A stretch of DNA of 64,000 nt from Halogranum gelatinilyticum (GTDB lineage: Archaea; Halobacteriota; Halobacteria; Halobacteriales; Haloferacaceae). The notes below the pieces were generated by a model. The model searched no databases. It saw only the letters and a program-made list of their open reading frames with translations, and was not told the origin of the DNA. Position 1 is the stretch's first letter. Every line of letters starts with the position of its first letter. Shown here piece by piece: positions 38,907 to 40,607 of this stretch. Position numbers and translations under genes: made by a program. The stretch lies in the NCBI RefSeq assembly GCF_900103715.1, contig NZ_FNHL01000001.1:849295-913294 (forward strand), written 5' to 3'.

Positions 38907-40607
38907 CTACGTCAGCCGGATCGTCTCGCGGTACGCCCCGAACTGCTCCTCGAAGACGTCCATGATCTCGCCCATCGTGACGTACGCCTTCACGGCGTCG
39001 ACGAGGACGGGCATGACGTTCTCCTCGGCCTCGATGGTCTCGCGGAGTTCGTCGAGGGCGGCCTCGACGGCCGCGTCGTCGCGCTCGGCTTTGACCTCGT
39101 CGAGTCGGGCGAGCTGCCGTTCCTGCACCTCGTCGGAGACGTGCAGGAGGTCGGGCTGGGTGTCCTCGTCGACGGTGTACTTGTTGACGCCGACGACGGT
39201 CTCCTCGCCGTCCTCCACGCGCGTCTGGTACTCGTATGAAGCCTCCTGAATCTCGCGGTGGAAGTAGCCCTCGTCGATGCCGTGGAGGACGCCGTCGCGG
39301 ACGGAGCCGTCTCCCATCTCTCTGATCTCCTCGATGTAGGCCATCGCCTCGGCCTCGACCTCGTCGGTGAGTGACTCGACCATGAAACTCCCGGCCAGCG
39401 GGTCGACACTGTCGGCCGCGCCGGACTCGTCGGCGATGATCTGCTGGGTCCGGAGGGCCACCCGCACAGCCTCCTCGGAGGGGAGTGCCATCGCCTCGTC
39501 GAAGGAGTTGGTGTGGAGCGACTGGGTGCCGCCGAGGACGCCCGCGAGTGCCTGAATCGTCACGCGGACGATGTTGTTCAGCGGCTGTTGGGCGGTCAGC
39601 GACTGGCCCGCCGTCTGCGTGTGGAACTTCAACTGCTTCGACCGTTCGTCCTCGGCACCGTACCACTCGTCCATCACGCGAGCGTAGATGCGGCGGGCGG
39701 CCCGGAACTTGGCGACCTCCTCGAAGATGGAGTTGTGCGAGTTGAAGAAGAAGGAGAGCTGCGGGGCGAACTCGTCGACGTCGAGCCCGCGGTCGACGGC
39801 GTCCTCGACGTAGGCGAAGCCGTCGGCGAGGGTGAACGCGAGTTCCTGGACGGCCGTCGACCCGGCCTCGCGGATGTGGTAGCCCGAGACGGAGATGGGG
39901 CGGATGCGCGGGGTCTCTTCGGCCGCGAACTCGACGGTGTCGGTGACGAGCTTCAGCGACGGTTCCGGCGGGATGACCCACTCCTTCTGGGCGATGAACT
40001 CCTTCAGCATGTCGTTCTGGAAGGTGCCGCCGATCTGCTCGCGGGGGACGCCGCGCTGGTCGGCGAGCGCGACGTACATGGCGTAGACGACGGGCGCGGA
40101 GGGGTTGATGGTGAAGGACGTGGTGACCTCGCCGATGTCGATGCCGTCGAAGAGGATCTCCATGTCGCGCAGGGTGTCGACGGCAACGCCCTCCTTGCCG
40201 ACCTCGCCGTCCGAGAGCGGGTCGTCGGAGTCCTTGCCCATCAGCGAGGGCATGTCGAACGCCGTCGACAGCCCGGTCTGGCCGTTTTCGACGAGGAAGT
40301 GGAACCGGTCGTTGGTCTCTTCAGCGGTCCCGAAGCCGGCGAACTGCCGCATGGTCCACGTCCGGCCGCGGTACATCGTTGGATACACCCCGCGCGTGTA
40401 GGGGAACTCGCCGGGGAAGCCGAGGTCCTCCTCGTAGTCGAGGTCGGCGACGTCGTCGGGCGTGTAGAGGTCGTCGATCTCGAGGTTCGAGACGGTGGCG
40501 AAGCGGTCCTTGCGCTCGCCGTGGCGGTCGAGCAGCGGGTCACGGGTCTCGGACTCCCACTCGTCTCTGGCCTCGCGTATTGCCGCGAGGTCGTCCTCGT
40601 CGTACAT
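38907..40607 (-). CDS. B12-dependent acyl-CoA mutase, large subunit (non-canonical methylmalonyl-CoA mutase paralogue)
   Basis: A 566-residue TIM-barrel mutase subunit. Family motifs are clear: RGVYPTMYRGRTWTMRQ, TAEETND, GTFQNDMLKEF, SVSGYHIREAG (His244) and HTQTAG. Numbering coincides with the Propionibacterium enzyme. Two residues that define methylmalonyl-CoA specificity differ: Tyr89 is Phe89 (MRQFAGFG) and Arg207 is Gln207 (EFIAQKEW). Phe and Gln at these places are the signature of isobutyryl-CoA mutase. Ala116 argues against 2-hydroxyisobutyryl-CoA mutase, which has Asp there. I infer a substrate without a free carboxylate. It lacks a B12 domain and must use a separate small subunit such as that at 23848. 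Confidence 0.9.
   Translation of the reverse strand: MYDEDDLAAIREARDEWESETRDPLLDRHGERKDRFATVSNLEIDDLYTPDDVADLDYEEDLGFPGEFPYTRGVYPTMYRGRTWTMRQFAGFGTAEETNDRFHFLVENGQTGLSTAFDMPSLMGKDSDDPLSDGEVGKEGVAVDTLRDMEILFDGIDIGEVTTSFTINPSAPVVYAMYVALADQRGVPREQIGGTFQNDMLKEFIAQKEWVIPPEPSLKLVTDTVEFAAEETPRIRPISVSGYHIREAGSTAVQELAFTLADGFAYVEDAVDRGLDVDEFAPQLSFFFNSHNSIFEEVAKFRAARRIYARVMDEWYGAEDERSKQLKFHTQTAGQSLTAQQPLNNIVRVTIQALAGVLGGTQSLHTNSFDEAMALPSEEAVRVALRTQQIIADESGAADSVDPLAGSFMVESLTDEVEAEAMAYIEEIREMGDGSVRDGVLHGIDEGYFHREIQEASYEYQTRVEDGEETVVGVNKYTVDEDTQPDLLHVSDEVQERQLARLDEVKAERDDAAVEAALDELRETIEAEENVMPVLVDAVKAYVTMGEIMDVFEEQFGAYRETIRLT

Follow-up and report, generated by a model that had tools for sequence, protein, structure and literature searches.

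An acyl-CoA mutase large subunit with the residues of isobutyryl-CoA mutase

The window analyzed here is a 64,000-nucleotide stretch of Halogranum gelatinilyticum DNA (contig NZ_FNHL01000001.1, positions 849,295 to 913,294). The gene under study, at 38907-40607 on the minus strand, is an open reading frame (ORF) that starts with ATG, encodes 566 residues and scored 720 bits against PF01642 and 745 bits against TIGR00641 in profile searches. Judged from sequence comparisons, its product probably serves as large subunit in a stand-alone, adenosylcobalamin (AdoCbl)-dependent isobutyryl-CoA mutase (ICM), which would interconvert isobutyryl-CoA and butyryl-CoA in a catabolic role.

Alignment to chains of solved structure revealed that Phe89 of the window protein occupies the Tyr89 site of methylmalonyl-CoA mutase (MCM) and Gln207 the Arg207 site, with Ala at 116 and His at 244. 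The MCM hallmark, Tyr89 with Arg207, is absent, the residues being Phe and Gln instead. The hallmark of 2-hydroxyisobutyryl-CoA mutase (HCM), Ile or Val89 with Asp116, is likewise absent, with Phe and Ala in its place. The window protein has all four residues, read both in the alignments and in the codons, of what we take to be the ICM signature: Phe89 and Gln207 with Ala116 and His244 retained. The earlier note on this DNA had proposed this non-MCM signature and had held that Ala116 speaks against an HCM; both points were borne out. The closest solved relative by sequence was HCM 4r3u (597 bits), which carries Ile, Asp and Gln at positions 89, 116 and 207; human MCM ranked second (469 bits). 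The Phe89 of chain 5REQ is no natural exception, as the title of that entry names the Y89F mutant.

The subunit layout is also of the stand-alone type. The large subunit (566 aa) and the B12 subunit (139 aa) are separate, unfused proteins; for stand-alone ICMs we assume reference sizes of ~566 aa and ~136-139 aa, respectively. The one-chain architecture of IcmF is not present, as the protein contains the mutase domain only and scored 372 bits against NF045497 (cutoff 1500).

The genome (3.77 Mb, 99.7% complete) encodes two PF01642 proteins, the window mutase and a paralog, L001, which is 60% identical to it and has Tyr, Ala, Arg and His at positions 89, 116, 207 and 244. By contrast, Phe, Ala, Gln and His occurred in all 42 of the other haloarchaeal orthologs whose residues were read, 29 of these being the top-scoring matches of the order-wide search and the sample therefore not random. 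Given this agreement among orthologs and the different residues of the paralog, the pattern is not due to chance.

Residue classes and phylogeny

In a set of 143 aligned sequences, 81 had Phe/Ala/Gln/His (counting the window protein and a provisional Streptomyces row), 59 had Tyr/Ala/Arg/His, two were HCM-like (Ile or Val at 89, Asp116) and one was an engineered mutant. When 80 Phe/Gln rows were compared with 56 Tyr/Arg rows, three columns had no residue in common: 89 (Phe versus Tyr), 122 (Leu or Ile versus Gln or His) and 207 (Gln versus Arg). For this count, the provisional row was left out of the first group and L085, L129 and L131 out of the second; all three have Gln at 122. As columns 89 and 207 helped to define the groups, only their perfect pairing is informative, whereas column 122 is independent.

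Nine divergent large subunits that were dropped from the trees (L087-L093, L096 and L097, from genomes G201, G217, G219, G228, G235 and G266) all have Asn at the His244 site, with a variable residue at 207; three of them lie within ~6 kb in G235. They may, to go by their residues, form an uncharacterized group of mutases, and the clean split between Phe/Gln and Tyr/Arg is therefore limited to the rows counted.

Trees were built with the trait columns and some neighboring columns removed. Beforehand, the duplicate row L003 was removed, as were 13 rows that were divergent or aligned poorly (L041, L043, L044, L087-L094, L096 and L097), and near-identical rows were thinned among haloarchaea and in family f21, which has small genomes and is probably Archaeoglobaceae (Archaeoglobi). 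The rows include no IcmF or ethylmalonyl-CoA mutase (ECM) sequence. A quick tree of 80 rows, comprising 21 chosen rows and those with <76% identity to the ones kept, placed the Phe/Gln rows, the HCM rows and three Tyr/Arg rows (L085, L129 and L131) in one clade (Shimodaira-Hasegawa-like approximate likelihood ratio test, SH-aLRT, 99). L085 is a third mutase of genome G216, which has a long branch and joins HCM in this tree. For a careful tree of 57 rows, 23 further rows were dropped, long branches (L085 included) among them. In this tree, the Phe/Gln and HCM rows formed one clade, apart from MCM and free of Tyr/Arg rows (98/97), and L129 and L131 lay outside it. The haloarchaeal rows, one f21 row and one row of family f24 formed a clade of their own (100/97). 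The Streptomyces IcmA row, a fragment of provisional sequence, belonged to a different sub-branch (97/95) of the Phe/Gln and HCM clade.

Forcing the haloarchaeal Phe/Gln rows into a clade with haloarchaeal MCM was rejected, marginally, by the approximately unbiased (AU) test (p-AU 0.0395), which argues to the same marginal extent against a recent duplication of haloarchaeal MCM. A Phe/Gln clade with HCM outside was not rejected (p-AU 0.157). We set aside an MCM identity, against which the residues, column 122 and the tree all speak, and an HCM identity, as Ile89 and Asp116 are absent. The position within MCM, with compensating residues, that the earlier note had named as counting against its proposal was not found.

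One B12 subunit apparently shared by two large subunits

The small subunit gene that the earlier note had placed at 23848-24267 is real, by its score against TIGR00640 (Table 1), and is the sole mutase-type small subunit detected in the genome. Two B12-binding proteins exceeded the Pfam cutoff, this one and the methylaspartate mutase subunit S (205 bits, cutoff 110); the latter was considered as a dedicated partner and rejected on that identification. Both large subunits therefore appear, from the gene inventory, to depend on one small subunit. There is a single strong MeaB-type G-protein (295 bits), encoded directly 3′ of the small subunit; two others scored just 24 and 19 bits. The subunit S gene (L233; G000 C2, ~253.7-254.1 kb) lies near an ORF that, judged by eye, resembles the corresponding large subunit, and so the genome may run the methylaspartate cycle.

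Of the 195 sampled genomes of the order, 176 matched the window mutase at E≤1e-100: a close ortholog (E<1e-260) in 161 and weaker, MCM-like matches alone in 15, these classes being set by score and not by residues. A mutase-type small subunit was present in 174, of which 166 had a single copy and eight had two. It was likewise missing from the 19 genomes that have no mutase match (18 are listed, which leaves G185 as the last of them); the two others lacking it, G019 and G096, are ~60% complete. The best reading of these counts is that, in most haloarchaeal genomes, one B12 subunit would serve two large subunits.

Linkage was counted over genomes where both gene places appear among the matches listed. 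The distance between the small subunit gene and the Phe/Gln gene was at most 25 kb in 34 of 120 genomes and at most 70 kb in 57. For the Tyr/Arg gene, either limit gave 2 of 27. Thus, the small subunit is more often linked to the Phe/Gln gene. Among the 21 genomes with all three genes listed, the Phe/Gln gene was ≤25 kb from the small subunit in eight. Finally, in five of the eight two-copy genomes (G047, G154, G164, G184 and G189), one copy was ≤2.5 kb from the Phe/Gln gene; G043 and G190 have one copy among the matches listed, and G076 is without a close ortholog.

Gene context in the window and in relatives

The features of the window are collected in Table 1. The 2-oxoacid:acceptor oxidoreductase upstream of the mutase is a possible source of acyl-CoA.

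Table 1. Features of the window. The 20 related neighborhoods compared are haloarchaeal.
Feature	Position	Strand	Remarks
Acyl-CoA mutase large subunit (IcmA-like), 566 aa	38907..40607	-	ATG start; PF01642, TIGR00641
Phe89 codon	40341..40343	-	Tyr in MCM, Ile in HCM
Ala116 codon	40260..40262	-	Asp in HCM
Leu122 codon	40242..40244	-	Gln or His in the Tyr/Arg class; third column without overlap between the classes
Gln207 codon	39987..39989	-	Arg in MCM
His244 codon	39876..39878	-	Conserved
B12-binding small subunit, 139 aa, DGHDRG motif	23848..24267	+	TIGR00640 183 bits, cutoff 57
MeaB-type G-protein chaperone, overlaps end of small subunit gene	24267..25340	+	Start inferred
Acyl-CoA ligase (PRK06187 subfamily), downstream of mutase	29957..31591	-	Homolog 1.6-7.4 kb from mutase start in 7/20 related neighborhoods
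Acetyl-CoA synthetase, downstream of mutase	36203..38188	-	Homolog 1.8-2.7 kb from mutase start in 7/20 related neighborhoods
2-Oxoacid:acceptor oxidoreductase, alpha subunit, upstream of mutase	41582..43486	+	
2-Oxoacid:acceptor oxidoreductase, beta subunit	43480..44346	+	Homolog near mutase in 3/20 related neighborhoods

The earlier note had suggested that the mutase possibly feeds n-butyryl-CoA into a thiolase/CoA network encoded nearby. This link is weak in the window itself and clear in some relatives. One haloarchaeal locus, L245, combines the mutase and small subunit with a FadX-like protein (424 bits, cutoff 750), which we take to be a CoA-transferase, an acyl-CoA dehydrogenase, a 3-hydroxybutyryl-CoA dehydrogenase (NF005875, 327 bits, cutoff 319), a thiolase and a ligase resembling MbcS (578 bits, cutoff 850). 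For several of these proteins, the score of the best model is below its own cutoff. Judged by its ORFs, L243 has the same gene set. At L246 and L247, the mutase is accompanied by the small subunit, MeaB (at L246 by ORF sequence only) and an acyl-CoA dehydrogenase. Among the plasmid-borne Phe/Gln copies, those of Natronorubrum aibiense and Natronosalvus amylolyticus lie near genes for acyl-CoA dehydrogenase and for MaoC or thiolase, and that of Haloterrigena turkmenica has genes for the B12 subunit and electron-transfer flavoprotein. A plasmid copy in Halopenitus is of the Tyr/Arg type.

In six of the nine archaeal loci outside the order (five from f21, one from f24), the small subunit and MeaB follow the mutase, with midpoints ~1.1 kb and ~1.8 kb, respectively, past that of the mutase. 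At one of the nine, L234, the B12 subunit and MeaB are followed by an adenosyltransferase, a thiolase and an acyl-CoA dehydrogenase; a divergent ligase is also present and has its best match in the MbcS model (449 bits, cutoff 850). The adenosyltransferase is of the PduO type (98 bits, cutoff 108) and has homologs in four of the nine loci.

The usual route of valine degradation in haloarchaea

The model for 3-hydroxyisobutyryl-CoA hydrolase, PF16113, had no match at E≤1e-40 in any of the 195 genomes of the order; it does match in Caulobacter and Corynebacterium. Similarly, 3-hydroxyisobutyrate dehydrogenase (HIBADH) was found above the model cutoff in none of the 195; at E≤1e-60, 43 genomes had a match, and H. 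gelatinilyticum was not among them. Methylmalonate-semialdehyde dehydrogenase (MMSDH) was not found in the H. gelatinilyticum genome at E≤1e-120. Based on these searches, the usual route looks incomplete in the window genome and looks to be without a recognized hydrolase across the 195-genome sample.

Proposed function and alternatives

In the mechanism that we favor, the large subunit would pair with the B12 subunit encoded in the window, loaded by the adjacent MeaB. As in known members, catalysis would proceed by AdoCbl homolysis and a 1,2-shift of the thioester group. The replacement of Tyr89, Gln/His122 and Arg207 of MCM by Phe, Leu and Gln would leave the pocket unsuited to a substrate carboxylate and suited to a methyl or alkyl end. 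Isobutyryl-CoA derived from valine or isobutyrate would be interconverted with n-butyryl-CoA, whose oxidation via crotonyl-CoA would yield acetyl-CoA; the gene context in relatives and the missing steps of the usual valine route point to this sequence. The Tyr/Arg paralog would remain an MCM and share the small subunit. The nearest characterized relative being HCM, isobutyryl-CoA is a putative substrate. The chances appear about even for a broader proposal: that haloarchaea as a class, together with Archaeoglobi-type archaea, would process valine-derived isobutyryl-CoA by B12-dependent isomerization to butyryl-CoA in place of the hydrolase/semialdehyde route, the haloarchaeal B12 subunit and chaperone being common to ICM and MCM large subunits.

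Several observations weigh against the assignment as an ICM. In the window, the mutase gene lies outside any beta-oxidation operon, and an MbcS-like ligase was not found in the genome (best score 245 bits, cutoff 850). Two of the five plasmid copies viewed, those of Haloarcula marina and Halocatena salina, are without a beta-oxidation gene in the stretch shown, and also without genes for the B12 subunit or electron-transfer flavoprotein. The nearest characterized neighbor of the archaeal branch is, with weak support (87/71), HCM and not the provisional Streptomyces IcmA. The latter resembles the haloarchaeal copies (~54-58% identity) no more than it does a Tyr/Arg protein of Streptomyces (54.8%). 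HCM is also the best fold match of an AlphaFold2 model (Z 40.2 versus 38.3 for MCM and 33.2 for IcmF). The model has a mean predicted local distance difference test (pLDDT) score of 79, with values below 50 at residues 72-88 and low confidence also at 333-372. It is therefore unreliable at the pocket and too uncertain for docking, and the fold matches establish an acyl-CoA mutase and no more. With respect to the valine route, MMSDH occurs in 56 of the 195 genomes. Our expectation that it would be rarer where the mutase is present did not hold, as it was found in 49 of 161 genomes with a close ortholog and in 5 of 15 with MCM-like matches only. An unrelated thioesterase could replace the hydrolase, and one relative has an HIBADH-like gene (G011:C1:33607-34443; 246 bits, below cutoff) immediately upstream of its Phe/Gln mutase. 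Finally, ActD, an ECM-type mutase, belongs to the HCM subclass according to PMC5719088, and so the clade alone does not fix the substrate.

In an alternative reading, the enzyme is of the same non-carboxylate class and acts on the CoA ester of 2-hydroxyisobutyrate, 2-methylbutyrate, isovalerate/pivalate or a longer branched acid. Among solved proteins, HCM comes nearest in both sequence and fold, and it adjoins the archaeal branch. Moreover, MbcS selectively activates 2-methylbutyrate as well as isobutyrate (PMC10026030), so the MbcS-like ligases beside some orthologs suit 2-methylbutyrate equally. We nevertheless consider this reading unlikely: the two HCM-like rows have Ile or Val89 with Asp116, whereas the window protein and all 42 haloarchaeal orthologs have Phe and Ala, and a Phe/Gln clade excluding HCM is compatible with the AU test. 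A mutase acting on methylmalonyl-CoA or ethylmalonyl-CoA, with the carboxylate bound by other residues, is very improbable. The annotated orthologs do carry the MCM family name, as the earlier note had anticipated of automatic annotation, the TIGR00641 score is high, and a single small subunit must serve both paralogs in most genomes; ActD is termed an ECM in PMC5719088, and our tree has no ECM row. However, the genome has a separate Tyr/Arg paralog, and at column 122 the Gln or His of MCM has given way to the less polar Leu or Ile in 80 of 80 Phe/Gln rows. Lys208 might compensate for Arg207, yet HCM, whose substrate has no free carboxylate, also has Lys208. No epimerase or carboxylase was recognized among the selected neighbors of ortholog loci that were scanned by family.

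A further possibility concerns direction, butyryl-CoA being converted to isobutyryl-CoA to provide a branched building block. The enzyme interconverts the two, and that of Streptomyces supplies polyketide precursors (PMC2847961). We regard this direction as quite improbable in vivo, as the neighbors scanned in relatives (acyl-CoA dehydrogenase, 3-hydroxybutyryl-CoA dehydrogenase, thiolase and acyl-CoA ligase) have catabolic roles and no biosynthetic cluster was recognized among the neighbors of the window gene that were looked at.

Comparison with known systems

The haloarchaeal system resembles IcmA/IcmB of Streptomyces (EC 5.4.99.13) in having a large subunit free of a B12 domain and a small B12 subunit, and in the residues Phe, Ala, Leu and Gln at 89, 116, 122 and 207 of the provisional row. 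It differs in its identity to that fragment and its sub-branch, as noted above, in being archaeal, and in a small subunit apparently common to MCM. In the bacterium Syntrophothermus lipocalidus, Slip_0757-0760 likewise bring together large and small subunits, MeaB and an adenosyltransferase (PMC5017805). There, isobutyrate is isomerized to butyrate for beta-oxidation, and homologous clusters are said to occur in "other prokaryotes". HCM 4r3u shares Gln207, Leu122 and Lys208 with the window protein, but has Ile89 and Asp116 where the latter has Phe and Ala. IcmF 4xc6 has the same fold and catalytic domain (38% identity over 449 aligned residues), but carries B12 and G-protein domains in its chain, whereas these are separate genes in the haloarchaeal genome. 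The MCMs (1req, 2xij and the paralog L001) share the fold and His244, but have Tyr89, Gln or His122 and Arg207 and belong to a different clade.

In 2010, ICM was described as known only from bacteria (PMC2847961). The earlier note's view that an archaeal ICM would be new is overstated, as a protein of the archaeon Cuniculiplasma has already been labelled isobutyryl-CoA mutase subunit B in print (PMC7285479). A survey of ten haloarchaea reported MCM genes in all but one, and the passages considered do not mention isobutyryl-CoA (PMC3102087). The main text of a review of open issues in Haloferax contains none of the words "mutase", "methylmalonyl" and "isobutyryl". Our literature search, of partial coverage, found no paper assigning an ICM to haloarchaea, and earlier notice is possible. 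The novelty is in the breadth of occurrence and the shared B12 subunit, the enzyme type itself being already known.

If the assignment is true, one of the two mutase genes is misnamed in most sampled haloarchaeal genomes, and metabolic models that route it to succinyl-CoA are wrong. Haloarchaea would have a complete route for isobutyryl-CoA despite the missing recognized hydrolase, in which a B12 enzyme turns a branched four-carbon acid into a straight one that is burned like ordinary fat. Stand-alone ICMs would extend to a whole archaeal class, which would provide a system for testing how a single B12 subunit, with its chaperone, selects one of two large subunits.

Occurrence among archaea and bacteria

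Across the wider phylum, PF01642 was matched at E≤1e-60 in 58 of 196 genomes. Within family f21, most genomes with such a match have two, and the proteins read comprised 18 Tyr/Arg and 7 Phe/Gln sequences. The window protein is not an isolated archaeal case, given the close orthologs assigned by score in 161 of the 195 genomes and the Phe/Gln members of another archaeal family. Among the best 80 of 594 confirmed stretches in a scan of named genome contigs, Phe/Gln proteins occurred in Chloroflexota, Acidobacteriota, Bacteroidota, Actinomycetota, Gemmatimonadota, a Bathyarchaeote and others; in these 80, most members of the Phe/Gln class are bacterial, and archaea are represented as well.

Two of the loci have further features. 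On a Deinococcus plasmid (L111), an unannotated match to the B12 small subunit lies in two pieces at 6416-6822, between meaB and the Phe/Gln mutase. In an uncultured archaeon, the C-terminal part of the Phe/Gln mutase (L134, 6001-7686) contains an in-frame TAA, and ORFs resembling the small subunit and MeaB follow downstream.

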